Positions 5,076 to 15,043 of a DNA stretch of 64,000 nt are shown in pieces. A program made the position numbers and the translations under genes. The number at the start of each line of letters is the position of its first letter. The stretch's first letter is position 1. Origin of the DNA: Microbacterium oxydans (lineage in GTDB: Bacteria; Actinomycetota; Actinomycetes; Actinomycetales; Microbacteriaceae); assembly GCF_026559675.1 (NCBI RefSeq), contig NZ_CP092891.1, positions 3,224,001-3,288,000 on the forward strand, read 5' to 3'. The notes under the pieces are model-generated. The model did not search any database, was not told where the DNA came from, and worked only from the letters and a program-made list of their open reading frames with translations.

Positions 5076-5732
5076 TCAGTCGGCGTCGCCGTCAGGCAGC
5101 CGGAAGAGCAGCTCAATGGCGAGCTCGGCCTTGATCGCGTCCTTCTCGGCGATCGCCTCGGCGAGGGCCTCGTACCGACGGGTGATCATGTCCCAGTCGA
5201 GGCTCGACGACGCACTCGAGTGCGTCGCACGGTAGAGCACCGAGTCGAGCGTGTCGGCGGTCGCGCGGACCAGCACCGGGTTCTCGCAGAGATCGAGGAC
5301 GACGCGCACGAGGTTCCAGCTGACGACGTTGAACTCGGTGGCGTCTTCGGCGCGGGTCGCCTTGAGGACGGCCTCGATCTCGGCGGCGAGCCTCTTCTGC
5401 CCCGTCGCGCCGAGCGTCGGCACGGTGACGCGCACGACGCCACCGATCAGCGCACCCAGGGTCTGCAGGTAGTAGACGACGTGGTCTTCGTTGGCGACGG
5501 CAACCCGCGTGTACTTTTGCGCTGCGGTCTCGACGAGGCCGACCAGCGCCAGCTCGTTGAGCGCTTCACGGAGCGGCGTGCGCGAGACGCCTAGCCACTC
5601 CATCAGCTGGTCGTCATTGAGCCGCTCCCCGGGCGTGAGCGTGCCATCGAGAATCGCATCGCGGATGCGCTCCTTCGCCACCTCTCGAAGCGTCTTGCGC
5701 TCGGGCTTCTCGGCTGTCTTAGGCACGGGCAT
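5076..5732 (-). CDS. GntR-family (FadR/FCD-type) transcriptional regulator 1
   Basis: 218 residues. The ATG is preceded by AGGAGCCCGCA. Residues about 12-75 are the winged helix (LREVAKERIRDAILDGTLTPGERL, then [16 protein letters not shown]). The rest is an all-helical FCD-like effector domain. The D-x-x-F-H metal-binding signature of typical FCD domains is not visible: the equivalent region reads EFNVVSWNLVRVVLDLCEN. It is one of five similar regulator genes within 9 kb, and its MPVPKTAEKP start resembles those of its neighbours (MTVPTTAAAP, MPIPTSAAPP). The upstream gap contains TCTAGTAGG (5761-5769), a weak match to the island motif. Likely controls genes of the glycan/surface island, possibly including itself. 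Confidence 0.88.
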   Translation of the reverse strand: MPVPKTAEKPERKTLREVAKERIRDAILDGTLTPGERLNDDQLMEWLGVSRTPLREALNELALVGLVETAAQKYTRVAVANEDHVVYYLQTLGALIGGVVRVTVPTLGATGQKRLAAEIEAVLKATRAEDATEFNVVSWNLVRVVLDLCENPVLVRATADTLDSVLYRATHSSASSSLDWDMITRRYEALAEAIAEKDAIKAELAIELLFRLPDGDAD

Positions 5733-5853
5733 TGCGGGCTCCTGTCGTTCCTCTGATCACTCTAGTAGGTCACATAATGACAGGGTCAGCACATCGGCCA
5801 CGCTCGGAGCCGCGCCGCACGCAAATAGATATCCGCTGGAGGGGAGCGCGGCG

Positions 5854-6525
5854 TCACATATCCCGATAGACGGTAAGGAAATTGCGGCGGGTGGGCTCAT
5901 ACAGCGCGTGAATCAGGTCACCGGTGCGCTGTGCATCACCCGATTCGGCAGCTTCGGCGATCCGAGTTATCTGCTCGACGATCAGTCCTGTGTCGAGGAG
6001 CTCTTCACGCGGGGTGAGGAATCGCAGCAGCTGGAGGTTCAGCGATTCGACGGTGTCGACGAGCACCTTGTTGCCGGTGGCTTGCTCGAAGACGAGGAAG
6101 AAGTCGCGGATCGCGGGGCCGAGCGCCACGATGTCCCCCTTCTTCTGCGCCGTGGCCGCCGCCTTGGCGAAGGCACGAAGCTCCTTCAGGTTCACGGCGT
6201 CCATCTTTCCGACCACCTGGCGCGCTGCGAACTCATGCAGCACTCCGCTCGCGAACATCCCCTCGTTGATCACGCGGAAGTCCAACGGCGCCACACGGGT
6301 GTACTTGTGCGCCACGAGCTCGACGACGCCGTCCTCGGCCAGCTTCGTGAGCGCCTCGCGCAGCGGTGTGCGAGAGGTGCCGAGCCAGGTCTGGAGCGCG
6401 TCCGCATGAAGCTCTTCACCCGCTTCAAGGGTTCCATCGAGGATCGCCCCGAGGATCTGCTCATACGCCTCGTCACGCAGAAGGCGACGCTTGATGGGCG
6501 CCGCGGCGGTCGTCGGGACTGTCAC
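5854..6525 (-). CDS. GntR-family (FCD-type) transcriptional regulator 2
   Basis: 223 residues. The GTG start overlaps the stop of regulator 3 (GTGA) and has GAAGGAAG upstream. The winged helix at about residues 12-75 has the signature LLRDEAYEQILGAILDGTLEAGE and WLGTSRTPLREALTKL. The C-terminal helical domain again lacks the histidines expected of a metal-binding FCD domain (region RDFFLVFEQATGNKVLV). It is made from the same mRNA as regulator 3 and probably works with it, perhaps as a heteromer. Followed by about 120 nt before regulator 1. Confidence 0.88.
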   Translation of the reverse strand: MTVPTTAAAPIKRRLLRDEAYEQILGAILDGTLEAGEELHADALQTWLGTSRTPLREALTKLAEDGVVELVAHKYTRVAPLDFRVINEGMFASGVLHEFAARQVVGKMDAVNLKELRAFAKAAATAQKKGDIVALGPAIRDFFLVFEQATGNKVLVDTVESLNLQLLRFLTPREELLDTGLIVEQITRIAEAAESGDAQRTGDLIHALYEPTRRNFLTVYRDM

Positions 6526-7211
6526 GATGTTCCTTCTTCCTTCGAACCCGGCGCGAGTCCGTCTGCGAACGGAATCAGCGCACTGCTGAAGTACGCGGCG
6601 CTTGCCTCCGCGGCCGCTTCGGCATCTCCGCCGACAGCACTGTCGATCAGCGCATACAGTTGCGGGAAGCCGGCGTCGGTGTCGATCCTCGCGCCGAAGT
6701 GATTGATGATCCGCTGCATGTGCGGGGAATAGCGCTCTACCAGGCGCAGTGTGGTGCGGTTGCCGTAGCGGTCGAGGAAGATCCGGAACAGATCGAACAC
6801 ATCGGTGGTTCGCTGCGGCGACGGCCCGGCCGCGACGCCCTTCTCCAGAGCCGTACGGATGCGCTTCAGCTGCTTCCGGTCGGCATCAGTGAGGAGCGGA
6901 GTCGCTTCACGGATGACGGCGGTGTCCAGTGCTCCGAGGGTCTCGATGATCTGGCCGAACTGGACGATGTCGAGCGCCGCGACCTTCGTCGCCTTCTGCG
7001 GCACGACATCGACGAGCCCGAGGTTCGCGAGCCGTCCGATCGCCTCACGAATCGGAGTGCGAGAGGCGCCCAGCCATTCTTCGAGCTGGCTGTCGACCAG
7101 GGTTTCCCCGGGTTCCAGCTCTCCGACGACGACCGCGTGAAGCAGACGTTCGAAGATCTGGTCGCGCAGGAGCGTGCGCTTCGGCGGGGCGGCGCTGGTC
7201 GGGATGGGCAT
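6522..7211 (-). CDS. GntR-family (FCD-type) transcriptional regulator 3
   Basis: 229 residues from ATG at 7211, chosen because MPIPTSAAPPKRTLLRDQ aligns with the starts of its paralogues; an upstream ATG at 7244 would add 11 unrelated residues. The winged helix carries RTLLRDQIFERLLHAVVVGELEPGE and WLGASRTPIREAIGRL. The helical effector domain ends in a charged tail. It is the first gene of a coupled pair with regulator 2. Its promoter region contains CATCTAGTATTT (7242-7253), a close match to the island motif, which suggests autoregulation or cross-regulation. Confidence 0.88.
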   Translation of the reverse strand: MPIPTSAAPPKRTLLRDQIFERLLHAVVVGELEPGETLVDSQLEEWLGASRTPIREAIGRLANLGLVDVVPQKATKVAALDIVQFGQIIETLGALDTAVIREATPLLTDADRKQLKRIRTALEKGVAAGPSPQRTTDVFDLFRIFLDRYGNRTTLRLVERYSPHMQRIINHFGARIDTDAGFPQLYALIDSAVGGDAEAAAEASAAYFSSALIPFADGLAPGSKEEGTS

Positions 7212-7241
7212 ATCCCCAGGATAGCCGCCAAACCGACACAA

Positions 7242-7253
7242 CATCTAGTATTT
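7242..7253. promoter_or_regulatory. CATCTAGTATTT motif upstream of GntR 3
   Basis: Differs at one base from the CATCTAATATTT found at three other places in the island. It lies 31-42 nt upstream of the chosen start of GntR 3, next to a second AT-rich stretch TTTGATATCC. Candidate operator for a GntR paralogue. Confidence 0.5.
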
Positions 7254-9803: not shown

Positions 9804-10937
9804 GTGAGCAAGGACATCGCGGTAGTTCTGGGGACGCGCCCGGAGATCATCAAGCTCGCCGGCATCATCACCGAACTCGGTGATCGCGCCCGCGTGATCC
9901 ACACCGGTCAGCACTACGACCACGAGCTCTCCGGGCAATTCATGGAGCAGCTCGGGCTGGGTGCCCCTGACGTCGTGCTCGAGGGCATCGGCGGAGCCGA
10001 TCGCAGCACCCAGATCGCCACGGCCATCCGGGCGCTCGGAGACGAGTTCCGCCGCAATCGCCCGGCAGCGGTCATCGTGCAGGGCGATACGAACGCCGTG
10101 TCGGCCGGAGCGCAGGCCGCCAACTACGCAGGCATCCCGGTCATCCACGTCGAGGCGGGGCTGCGCTCCTACGACCGCGCGATGCCTGAGGAGCTCAATC
10201 GCCTCATCACCGGTGTGCTCGCCGACGTGCACTGCGCCGCCACGACGCACAACCGGGAGAACCTCCTCGCCGAGGGGGTCGACCCGCGTCGGATCGCCGT
10301 CACGGGCAACACGATCGTCGAGGCCACGCTGTCCTCGCTCGAGAACGGCGACGGCATGGTCGAGAAGCACTTCCCGGGTGACGACGAGCGCCCCGAGTCC
10401 TTCGTGCTCGCGACCATCCACCGTCCGGAGAACACCGATACCGAGCCGGCGCTACGGCGAGTACTGCAGGGCCTGGTCGACATCGATGCACCGGTGGTGT
10501 TCGCCATCCACCCCCGCACCCGCGCGGCGATCGAGCGCTTCGAACTCACGACGTACCTCGACCACCTCATCGTGATCGACTCTCCCGGCCACGCCGACTT
10601 CCTCGACCTGGCCCTGTGCGCCGACCTTCTCGTCTCCGATTCCGGTGGCGTACAGGAAGAATGCACCGTACTGAAGCGTCCGCTCCTCGTGATCCGCCGC
10701 AGCACCGAGCGCCCGGAATCCGTCGAGGCCGGGTTCGCGTCCCTCATCACGCCGGATCAGGACATCGCAGCGGCGGCCAACGCAGTGCTCGCAGACTCGG
10801 AGTACCAGCATCGGCTCGCGGAGACGCCGTCCCCCTATGGGGACGGAAGTGCGAGCACGTCCATCGCCGGGATCGCACGGCGCATCGCCGACGGCGCCGA
10901 CGCGCAGGCGAGTGTTCTCGGCCGCGAAGCCGCCTAG
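9804..10937 (+). CDS. wecB: UDP-N-acetylglucosamine 2-epimerase (non-hydrolysing)
   Basis: 377 residues, the normal length. GTG start with GGAGGAAG upstream. Family motifs are all visible: [10 protein letters not shown] at the N-terminus, [47 protein letters not shown] and SDSGGVQEE. It interconverts UDP-GlcNAc and UDP-ManNAc in the cytoplasm, supplying ManNAc for cell-wall polymers or exopolysaccharide. It is the only precursor-sugar enzyme in the island and faces the exosortase/GT2 operon across a shared regulatory region, so the GT2 product may contain ManNAc. Its stop overlaps the stop of the convergent GntR-GntR fusion gene. Confidence 0.93.
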
Positions 10938-12226
10938 CCGCCGGCCCGCAGCGCATTGGCGCTGCATCGAAGGAGCTGGCTGGTGAGGACGGCGGCCTCC
11001 GCGCCATCGGCACGGCGCACCGCCGCCCCCATCCGCTCCCCATAGTCCGCGATCCGAGTCACGTCTCCGGTCAGCGTCACCCCCACGTCTTTGTACAGCC
11101 AGGGGGTGATGCTGGCCATGAGTGCGTTGAGCGTTGCATTTTCACTCACCTCGCCGAGCTGGAGGAGCGCCGCGGAGAAGCAGGAGATGGCGGCGCCGAA
11201 GTCGCCCAGCGTGGCACCGTCCCGCATGGCGTCGTAGTGCTCGATGAGGAGCGTGCGCGCATCGTCTCCCATGTGCGGGATCACAGTGCACAGCGCCAGA
11301 TCACTGAAGATCGCCAGCGCCTCGAGCGCCTCCCCGAGTCGGTACGGATCGAAGGCAGGGAGAAGCGCCTGTCGGCCGGCGAGCATCTCGACGACCCCTA
11401 TCATCTCCAGCCGGTTGAGCGCTTCCTTCACCGGGGTGCGGGAGACGCCGAGCCAGGTCATCAGGTCATCCTCCCGAAGGTGGTCCCCCGCGGTCAGCGT
11501 GCCGTCCGCGAGCGCGTCGAGGATCGACGCGTACACCTGATCGCGCAATAACTTGCGCGGGATGCTGCGCCCAGCTTGCAACGGCCTCGAAGGGGGCGGT
11601 GCCAGCACCTGATCACGCCATGCTCGCATCGCCGCGTCCGCTCGCTCTCCGTCGCGCTCCACGATGGCAGCGACCAGATCATCGTGCGTGGCAGGGTCCA
11701 TGCCGATCTCCTGGACGACCGCGGGAAGCACCGCTTCAGCCCATCGCAGGTGCTCGCAGATCGCACATGCCGCACGATCCAACGTGCGATTCCGCGCGGT
11801 TGCGACGATGTCGCGCAGCGCGCCCCCGACCTCGAGCGCACTGACGCGCCCGCCGTCATCAGCCGCGGTTCGTCGAGACCCGCTCCCGGGCATCGATGCC
11901 GCAGATGTGGATGGCAGAGGAGAGCCGAGGCTTGCGCGGGCCATGTACTGGAGGACCACGAGGGCATCGACCGTCGTGCGACGTGACGGTCGAGAGACCC
12001 GTGTGCCCTTCTGTGGCAGAACCTCGACGAACCCCTCCCGCGCCAGCATGCCCACTGCCTCGTGCACCGGAGCGCGGGAGACCCCGGCTCGCGCAGCGAT
12101 GTCCTCTTCATTTAGTGATGCGCCAGGGGCAAGACAACCACTGACAATATCGGCGCGTAGCGCGGCATAGACCTCCTCTCTGAGGAGTGGGCGGACAAGA
12201 TGTTGGGGAGTCGTCGGCACTGGCAC
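10934..12226 (-). CDS. Tandem GntR-GntR fusion regulator
   Basis: 430 residues from GTG at 12226, chosen because [18 protein letters not shown] matches the starts of the other GntR paralogues; an ATG at 12253 would add nine residues. It contains two complete regulators in series. The first winged helix (about 10-85, with [15 protein letters not shown]) is followed by a degenerate, shortened helical domain. The second winged helix (about 220-290, [35 protein letters not shown]) is followed by a fuller FCD-like domain. GntR proteins normally have one DNA-binding domain and dimerise, so this would be a covalent pseudo-dimer able to contact two half-sites. There is no Shine-Dalgarno; TATGAT lies about 7 nt upstream of the GTG, suggesting a leaderless mRNA. 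Confidence 0.85.
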
Positions 12227-12280
12227 AGAAATATCATATGGTTTGATAGTCAAGCGCTGGCGTCCTCATGACACGCCGAA

Positions 12281-12310
12281 GAGGGCGAGCTCCCCGGGGA
12301 ACCCGCCCTC
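12281..12310 (-). terminator. Hairpin downstream of the surface protein gene
   Basis: Arms 12281-12287 (GAGGGCG) and 12304-12310 pair, with an inner CCCCGGGG palindrome and a small bulge between. It lies 17 nt after the surface protein stop and upstream of the fusion regulator gene. Confidence 0.55.
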
Positions 12311-12326
12311 GACTCAACCTCGCGGC

Positions 12327-13275
12327 TTAGGCGGCGGTGGTCTTCTTGCGGTTGCGGATGGCGATGACGGTGCCGGCGATGGCGAACAGGGCGATGCCTG
12401 CACCACCGGCGAGGGTGGGGTCGATGACCGGGCTGTTCAGCGGGTCAGCGATGATGATCGAGACGTTGTCGGTCGTCGTGGTGCCGTCGGTCGCGGTCTG
12501 CGTCGCGGTGATCTTGATCGGACCGTCCGGCAGGTTCACGCCCACCGTGCAGGACCATGCACCGCTCGAGACCGTCGCACGGCACAGCTCGGTACCGGCG
12601 TCATCGGTGAGGATGACCTCCGCGCCCTCGTCACCCGTGCCCGTGATCGTCGGGTTACGGGTATCCGACACCTCACCATCGACCGGACCCGTGATGTCAA
12701 CGGGGACGACGGCGCCGGGGATCGTGACCGGCTGCACGGTGTAGTACGAAAGCGAGAGTCGGCCGTGGAATCGTGTGGGATCGGTGCCTGGCTCATACCA
12801 GGCCCAGTCGCCGAGGAAGCGCCCAGTGCCTGCGTCGCTGATGACCCCGTCGGAGCCAACACTGATGTCAGGTGCTACAGCACAATCGACGGGGGCGATA
12901 GTCGGTTCGTCGGGAGTGCCGCTTCGGAACTTAGCGCCGAGACACTGGCCAGCGAAGAGCCCGTCAAGGATGTAGACCTTTCCCGTCTCCCCGAGCTGGG
13001 GGAACGCGACCTTGTCACCCCGGGTGAGGTTCGTGCTGCTGTTACTCAACTCGCCGAAGGAATTGAACCAGTGGGCCTTGTGGTTGTCCGGAAACGCGGA
13101 GAAGTAGTAGATAAGGTCTCCGACGAGCATGTCCTGGGTGGCGTTTGTGCTCGCGGTTGCGGTGGGCTTGACCGTCGTGGGTTCGGCGGCGTTGGCGGGC
13201 AGGGCGAAGGCGCCCAGTGCCGCGGTCGCGAGCCCGATGCCCGATGCCCGCGACGATCTTCGTGAACTTGTTCAC
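12327..13275 (-). pseudogene. Ig-like surface protein with signal peptide frameshifted by a 7-bp tandem duplication
   Basis: Translation should begin at GTG 13275 (AAAGGAAC upstream): VNKFTKIVAGIG. In the present sequence the frame then breaks. Removing one of two tandem 7-bp units at 13233-13246 restores a classic signal peptide, MNKFTKIVAGIGLATAALG followed by AFALPANAAEPTTV, fused in frame to a protein of 313 residues. The body has an N-terminal domain of about 150 residues with several aromatic residues and cysteines, then one bacterial Ig-like domain (TRNPTITGTGDEGAEVILTD). The C-terminus has PVIDPTLAGGAG, a hydrophobic helix and RNRKK. There is no LPxTG, so the anchor may be an exosortase-type signal. 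As read, an internal ATG at 13130 would give a 267-residue form without a signal peptide. The gene is either inactivated or in the OFF phase. It is transcribed after the GntR gene ending at 13305. Confidence 0.82.
13233..13246. repeat. 7-bp tandem duplication in a signal-peptide coding region
   Basis: CCCGATG occurs twice back to back (13233-13239, 13240-13246) and is followed by CCCG. A unit of seven is not a multiple of three, so gaining or losing one copy switches the reading frame after about codon 12 of the surface protein. Confidence 0.9.
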
Positions 13276-13304
13276 AGTGATTGTTCCTTTGATTGGTGGG
13301 GTGG

Positions 13305-14048
13305 TCACTGCACAGCACGCAGAGCGAGCCCTGCAGCCTCGACAGCAGTGGTGTTCGGGGTCGGATAGGCCGATACCCCATTGCGCGGCGAGGTGACGCC
13401 GGCAAGCGCAGAGATGTACCGACCGAGGTGCTGGTCGGCGATGGCCGCATCGCCGCGATGTGCAGCGTCGATGGCGGCATCGATCAAGGTGTGTCGCTCG
13501 TCGTCGGACGACGAGACGTCGAGGCCGTGGGCGCGGAGCACCTCGGGCTGAAAGAAGATCCGGATCGGGGTGATCAGCTCGAGCAGCACGTAGCCGGCGA
13601 CGCGGTTGACGCCGCTCTCGACGATCGCCGACGCAAGGTCGAGGAACAGCTGCACATCGGCACAGCAGTTTGACCCCGGGGCGACGCGAGCCATGGGAGC
13701 GCTGAGCGCCGCGACATCGAGCCGTGGGTCGACGAGCACGAGTCGCACCAGACGCCCGGTGACCTCGAGGCGGTCGCGGATGTCATCCGCGTCCCACTCC
13801 GCGATCTGCGTGCGGCTGTTGCGCACCACCTCGACGAAGCGGGTGGCCGCCAGACGGAGCAGCGCCTCACGTACGGGTGTGCGGGAGACACCGAACTCCT
13901 CAGCGATCGAATCAACGTTTAGCCGCTGACCGGGCTGATAGCGCATCGCGATGATGTCGCCCAAGACGCGCACGAAGATCGAGTCGCCAAGGACGTTCTT
14001 GTCGATCGCACGGTTACTCACCGGCGATGTGACGGATGACCTCAACAA
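13305..14048 (-). CDS. GntR-family transcriptional regulator 5
   Basis: 247 residues from TTG at 14048, with GAGGAG 5 nt upstream. The winged helix at about residues 24-90 contains GQRLNVDSIAEEFGVSRTPVREALLRL; the remainder is a helical FCD-like domain. It is more distant from the other four and lacks their MPVPTT-type start. The surface protein starts 30 nt downstream, so the two genes form an operon and the regulator probably controls that protein. Two identical 15-bp direct repeats containing CATCTAATATTT lie 25-92 nt upstream of its start. Confidence 0.85.
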   Translation of the reverse strand: MLRSSVTSPVSNRAIDKNVLGDSIFVRVLGDIIAMRYQPGQRLNVDSIAEEFGVSRTPVREALLRLAATRFVEVVRNSRTQIAEWDADDIRDRLEVTGRLVRLVLVDPRLDVAALSAPMARVAPGSNCCADVQLFLDLASAIVESGVNRVAGYVLLELITPIRIFFQPEVLRAHGLDVSSSDDERHTLIDAAIDAAHRGDAAIADQHLGRYISALAGVTSPRNGVSAYPTPNTTAVEAAGLALRAVQ

Positions 14049-14072
14049 CGCGACTCCTCACTCAGGCCCTCT

Positions 14073-14140
14073 GCTCATCTAATATTTGTGATACAAAGCA
14101 TGTCACAACGATCATTTAATCGCAAGCTCATCTAATATTT
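14073..14140. promoter_or_regulatory. Two direct repeats of GCTCATCTAATATTT
   Basis: Exact 15-bp copies at 14073-14087 and 14126-14140, spaced 53 bp (about five helical turns), in the AT-rich gap between GntR 5 and the divergent PhzF-like gene. Same-face spacing and identity suggest a cooperative operator controlling the GntR 5/surface protein operon. Confidence 0.6.
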
Positions 14141-14200
14141 ATTCTTTGGATCATCGTCATCAGCGCTCGCCAGATCGCTGTCCCGCCGTACGATCTCGAT

Positions 14201-15043
14201 ATGGAACGCCGCTTTCGACAGGTCGATGTGTTCGGCGACGGAACCTGCACCGGCAACCCCGTCGCGGTGGTGCTCGATGCGGAAGGGCTCGACGACGACG
14301 AGCTCCGACGCTTCTCGGTGTGGTCGAACCTGTCCGAGTGCACGTTCGTGCTGCCGCCGACGACCCCGGATGCGGACTACCGCGTGCGGATCTTCAGCCT
14401 CCACACCGAATTCCCCTTCGCCGGTCACCCCACACTCGGCACTGCACGGGCATGGCTGGACGCTGGCGGGGTGCCCTCCGACCCGACACTGCTCGTGCAG
14501 GAATGCGCGGCCGGCCTGATCCCCATCCGCATCGACGCCGAGCTTCTCGCGTTCCGCTCCCCGCCTCGCACGCGGTCGGGCACCGTCGCGCCCGAGGACC
14601 TTGCCGCAGTCATCGGCATCCTCGGCGTCGACCCTGCGCGCGTGGTCGGCGCCGAATGGCTCGACAACGGCCCCGGCTGGGTCGGCGTGCTCCTGGACAG
14701 CGCGGATACCGTCCTCGCTCTGCGCCCCGACGCATCCCGCCACCCTGGCCGCTGGGACATCGGCGTAATCGGCCCGCACTCCCCCGGCGCGGAAGCATCG
14801 TTCGAGGTGAGGGCCTTCTTCACCGAGGGAGACGAACCGCTTCGCGAAGACCCGGTCACCGGGAGCCTGAACGGCGCCGCTGCCGAATGGCTGCTCGCCA
14901 CAGGCCGCGCCACCGCCCCGTACCTCAGTGGCCAAGGAACAGCGATGGGCCGCCGCGGCCGAGTTCGCATCGACCAGGATGGGGCGGGCGTCTGGGTCGG
15001 CGGACGAGCGAACGTGGTCATCTCGGGCTCGGTCATCATCTAG
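14201..15043 (+). CDS. PhzF-family isomerase/epimerase
   Basis: 280 residues, full length. Hallmarks: QVDVFGDGTCTGNPVAVV at the N-terminus, LSECTFV with the presumed catalytic Glu46, FPFAGHPTLGTA, and EDPVTGSLNGAAAEW in the second half. PhzF-like proteins use a glutamate to isomerise or epimerise small acids; outside phenazine clusters their substrates are mostly unknown. There are no other phenazine genes here. ATG 14201 has no ribosome binding site, but TACGAT ends 6 nt before it, so translation is probably leaderless. The gene ends at a strong hairpin. Confidence 0.88.
   Translation: MERRFRQVDVFGDGTCTGNPVAVVLDAEGLDDDELRRFSVWSNLSECTFVLPPTTPDADYRVRIFSLHTEFPFAGHPTLGTARAWLDAGGVPSDPTLLVQECAAGLIPIRIDAELLAFRSPPRTRSGTVAPEDLAAVIGILGVDPARVVGAEWLDNGPGWVGVLLDSADTVLALRPDASRHPGRWDIGVIGPHSPGAEASFEVRAFFTEGDEPLREDPVTGSLNGAAAEWLLATGRATAPYLSGQGTAMGRRGRVRIDQDGAGVWVGGRANVVISGSVII

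Follow-up and report, generated by a model that had tools for sequence, protein, structure and literature searches.

The window, the 64-kb stretch of DNA that was analyzed, contains a gene for a putative surface protein whose reading frame is broken by a tandem tract of a heptamer. The features of the locus are listed in Table 1. The surface-protein gene lies on the minus strand between two regulators of the GntR type, and its GTG start is preceded by a ribosome site of the AAAGGA type, as judged by eye. Translation from this start enters a frame of 77 residues, 18 of which are arginine, and then meets a stop codon. The frame downstream of the tract is open without a stop to 12327. It carries the sequence GIGLATAALGAFALPANAAEP, after which come the middle part of the protein, the Ig-like domain and a hydrophobic segment followed by a basic tail. 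A preliminary description of this DNA had stated that two adjacent CCCGATG units put the gene out of frame and that the remainder of the gene is intact. The two units are found exactly at 13233-13246, within the longer pure tract, the frames are as described, and no further stop or frameshift is seen. The gene spans 949 bases between 13275 and 12327, and subtracting one unit of 7 leaves 314 codons including the stop, in agreement with the 313-residue product that had been proposed to result on removal of one unit.

Table 1. Positions of the features discussed; coordinates are those of the window unless a genome or locus is named.
Feature	Position	Strand	Remarks
Frameshifted surface-protein gene	12327-13275	-	GTG start at 13275; stop ends at 12327
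Pure tandem tract, GCCCGAT x 2.71, period 7, 19 bp	13232-13250	-	In the signal-peptide codons; frame broken
Longest remaining ORF in the downstream frame, 267 residues	12327-13130	-	Without signal peptide
5' block common to both surface-protein genes	13174-13389	-	199 of 219 aligned columns (91%)
3' block common to both surface-protein genes	12343-12724	-	379 of 385 aligned columns (98%)
GntR-type regulator, open frame	13305-14048	-	Directly upstream of the surface-protein gene; last codons inside the 5' block
GntR-type regulator, two DNA-binding domains	10934-12253	-	Directly downstream of the surface-protein gene
Paralogue	G000:C1:3,200,213-3,201,187	+	Same genome; inverted relative to the window gene, 35-37 kb away
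Longer heptamer arrays, other genomes	L163:1501-1529 and L165:1500-1539		4.14 and 5.71 copies; intergenic by eye

The first ATG, GTG or TTG codon of the downstream frame is the ATG at 13130, which already lies past the signal peptide, and an alternative start of these kinds ahead of it was sought and is absent. CTG at 13202, CTG at 13217 and ATC at 13238 were also considered as starts, and by eye none has a convincing ribosome site. The 267-residue ORF that begins at 13130 comprises the middle part, the Ig-like domain and the C-terminal hydrophobic stretch with its basic tail. Inspection by eye gave no recognized slippery motif for programmed frameshifting, and a scan of 10900-14250 for promoters and terminators found nothing.

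The same genome contains a paralogue of the gene, which has one heptamer unit and an open frame that begins VNKFTKIVAGIGLATATLGAFAMPANA uninterrupted. A heptamer doublet was looked for in this gene, and there is none. Its signal peptide appears normal from its sequence, and this comparison with the single-unit gene supports the proposal that removal of one unit from the window gene would restore a signal peptide. The best 12-residue Kyte-Doolittle mean within the first 35 residues is 2.0 for the paralogue and 0.77 for the shifted product. The hydrophobic core is thus lost in the 77-residue peptide.

The two genes share a block at each end. The 5' block covers the start and the signal peptide together with the ribosome site and the final codons of the GntR gene upstream; the 3' block contains the Ig-like domain and the C-terminal stretch. 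A 370-bp core of the 3' block contains a single substitution, which is silent by eye. Between the blocks, the middles of the two genes give no DNA match by blastn. Around the tract the extra 7-bp unit is the sole difference over 109 positions, 86 of them upstream of the gap and 23 downstream. Because the single-unit paralogue keeps both the signal peptide and the frame, we take the doublet to be the derived state. Read on the plus strand of the window, the single-unit form is GCCCGATGCCCG, which contains a 5-bp direct repeat at a spacing of 7, equal to the length of the unit that is duplicated in the window gene.

The product of the window gene, if in frame, is probably secreted and anchored in the membrane, and it includes an Ig-like domain. 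The pair resembles bacterial Ig-like surface proteins of the Big_13 and Big_6 kind in having an Ig-like domain and a C-terminal hydrophobic stretch with a basic tail, and in the signal peptide of the paralogue. It differs from them in that the Ig-like part scores below the curated Pfam cut-offs, with 24.5 bits for Big_13 (PF19077) against 27 and 22.1 bits for Big_6 (PF17936) against 27.6, and in that a weak lectin match is limited to the paralogue. This match lies in the middle of the paralogue, to the ricin-type beta-trefoil lectin family (PF14200), and at 18.9 bits it too is below its cut-off of 25.6. The ORF of the window gene has no match to PF14200 at E up to 1, and its middle matches no Pfam family at the same limit. 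A domain resembling a ricin-type lectin is perhaps present in the paralogue. A single-sequence structure model has a mean pLDDT of 46.6, and its confident part is limited to about residues 161-220, where ten-residue blocks have means of 72-89. Comparison with solved structures gave one match for the window ORF, at E 0.7, and none for the paralogue at E up to 1. Three proteins were compared with defence families, and none was matched.

Two further genes near the paralogue are possible distant members of the family. One, at 3,186,945 in the same genome, has the Ig-like part in common (blastp E about 1e-7) and scores 33.7 bits with Big_6, above the cut-off. The other, at 3,190,101, is not matched by blastp at E 1e-4 and is placed in the group from inspection by eye and a Big_6 match that is weak (17.3 bits). 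Both lack the hydrophobic stretch found at the C-terminus of the pair. The 20 kb that contains these genes and the paralogue (G000:C1:3184001-3204000) has a GC content of 0.633, and also contains remnants of GntR genes and a gene resembling class A beta-lactamases (Pfam Beta-lactamase2). The window gene has a GC content of 0.650, the first 20 kb of the window 0.665 and the whole window 0.692. Genes of the GntR type are dense at 5076-7244 and 10934-14048 on the minus strand, with three similar genes in a row. Their similarity was assessed by blastp among themselves and to the GntR genes, and proteins similar to the flanking regulators are encoded at 5076-7244 and around 3,192,430.

We compared the tract with chance expectation. 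There are six period-7 tracts of at least 14 bp in the window, against means of 8.7 and 9.2 in Markov controls of order 2 and order 5 with 30 simulated windows each. Period-7 doublets as such are no commoner than chance in these 64 kb. A pure period-7 tract of at least 19 bp occurs once in the window and in none of the 60 simulated windows, and three occur in 0.95 Mb of real DNA, a sample made up of 65 of 80 fetched loci from mixed bacterial groups after the 15 with GC below 62% had been dropped. A tract of this length is rarer than a doublet, yet it is not exceptional in real DNA. The 14-base doublet has one match in the whole 3.78-Mb genome.

The gene was then sought in other genomes. A pattern-based scan for the ORF in named genomes, which reaches close relatives only and may omit the own or a very near genome, gave 83 stretches, and tblastn confirmed none of them. 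In a genus sample of 198 genomes, the own genome included, the protein is matched in 31 at E up to 0.001 with at most about 13 candidates scored per genome. Apart from those in G166 (63-232), G173 (97-178) and G186 (76-261), no match listed for the other 30 starts before residue 121, which places them in or near the Ig-like region. By eye, the G166 protein has the Ig-like part but lacks the middle, and the matched stretch in G173 overlaps a seemingly unrelated ORF. The upstream GntR gene is matched in 3 of the 198 genomes at an E limit of 1e-20, and DNA of the 5' part in 39 of the 198 with three candidates scored per genome, both counts including the own genome; elsewhere the latter matches cover just 24-68 bp. 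DNA of the locus matches in 47 of 58 relatives (own included; five candidates scored per genome), and in the other relatives the matches longer than about 150 bp fall in the neighboring epimerase gene. For a neighboring gene, the four records that head the list are Microbacterium at 74-76% identity, a Cryobacterium has the highest identity among the 80 of 166 relatives listed (78%) and other genera are close, so that membership in Microbacterium is weakly indicated. One of 72,556 plasmid records matches, in the Ig-like part. Within the 198-genome sample (own included, with limited candidates per genome) no orthologue was found that could show variation in the length of the tract.

Taken together, we give a probability of about two-thirds to the reading that this is a recent loss-of-function allele made by slippage, and revertible in principle. 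Short tandem duplications can be seeded by microhomology. The window gene resembles such cases in having one extra unit, and in that the single-unit form in the paralogue has a 5-bp repeat of the same spacing. This repeat (GCCCG-AT-GCCCG) would have pre-existed in the signal-peptide codons, and from the sequence it is the likely seed of slippage. The frame would then have been shifted by a single slippage event that inserted a further unit of 7 bp, in a gene whose recombined ends are shared with the open-frame paralogue. The gene's own start would now yield the arginine-rich 77-residue peptide, and an exported surface protein is not expected; any product of the 267-residue ORF at 13130 would be without the signal. 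Reversion could occur, perhaps at a low rate, if the doublet slips again or if the 5' block of the paralogue converts that of the window gene.

The stop-free downstream frame and the lone substitution in the core of the 3' block are both in accord with a recent inactivation. The intactness of the 3' block does not date the shift, however, because conversion from the paralogue could have refreshed it. The middle of the gene, unmatched at the DNA level in the paralogue, is a fairer witness of recency, and it is also free of stops. The preliminary description had called the change recent or reversible. That the duplication is derived is supported by comparison with the single-unit paralogue. The tract, the frames, the paralogue and the blocks common to both genes are direct observations, and we infer that the duplication arose by slippage, that it is recent, that export has been lost and that the change could revert.

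An error of assembly or base calling would leave the true chromosome with one unit and an intact gene. This would account for a gene that is otherwise free of defects and for the single unit of the paralogue, and a second locus that is partly near-identical is a setting in which assemblers can err; a lone tract of 19 bp within 64 kb could still reflect assembly noise. Set against this, the genome assembly is a single contig and is 99.96% complete, and a clean duplication of 7 bp is atypical compared with the usual error of the homopolymer type. Long reads could probably tell the copies apart, as there is no DNA match between their middles. We consider such an error unlikely.

At contingency loci, slipped-strand phase variation occurs at simple sequence repeats, tandem tracts in which a unit recurs perfectly several times within coding or promoter sequence. 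A locus of this kind here would gain and lose units at a high rate, toggling export of the surface protein within the population. The preliminary description had called the heptamer repeat a plausible slipped-strand switch, with a recent loss or an assembly error as alternatives. Like known contingency loci, the gene has a short tract with a period indivisible by 3, located early in an out-of-frame gene for a surface protein, a point at which it is sensitive to such changes. The unit can expand, as longer arrays of the same heptamer, with 4.14 and 5.71 copies, are present in 2 of the 197 remaining members of the genus sample, and the reversed control pattern gives no such array in 198 genomes. 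Both arrays look intergenic by eye, however; the array in L163 ends 26 bp ahead of a possible GTG start. In contrast to contingency loci, the tract in the signal-peptide codons has fewer than three copies in its 19 bp, a copy number that is low for a switch, a single length has been seen, and period-7 doublets are at chance level. With a paralogue that lacks the doublet, and no orthologue or second allele found in the genomes sampled that could show variation in length, the suggestion of a dedicated phase switch is not upheld, and we regard it as quite improbable.

The two surface-protein genes lie inverted to each other, nearly identical at their ends and without a DNA match in their middles, and they are a possible substrate for conversion or inversion. 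They might be a recombination pair in which slippage and recombination together decide which surface protein is exported, although we think this very doubtful. If it were true, conversion or exchange in the 5' block would transfer a start, whether intact or shifted, from one of the two protein bodies to the other, and recombination between the inverted blocks could in addition reverse the orientation of the intervening ~35 kb. We also think it very unlikely that the gene is an old pseudogene, long dead and intact in appearance only through conversion of its 3' end from the paralogue. The near identity of the 3' block (one change in 370 bp) would fit this, but the unshared middle of about 130 codons is likewise without a stop or further shift.

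The locus carries a caution for annotation, in that automatic methods would probably call the gene from 13130, without a signal peptide, and so miss the one that lies out of frame. If the allele is fixed, it indicates that the codons of a signal peptide can themselves seed a frame-breaking duplication. If instead it switches, it would provide a clear case of surface export controlled by slippage in a GC-rich bacterium, here probably an actinobacterium, a kind of case that to our knowledge is rare.
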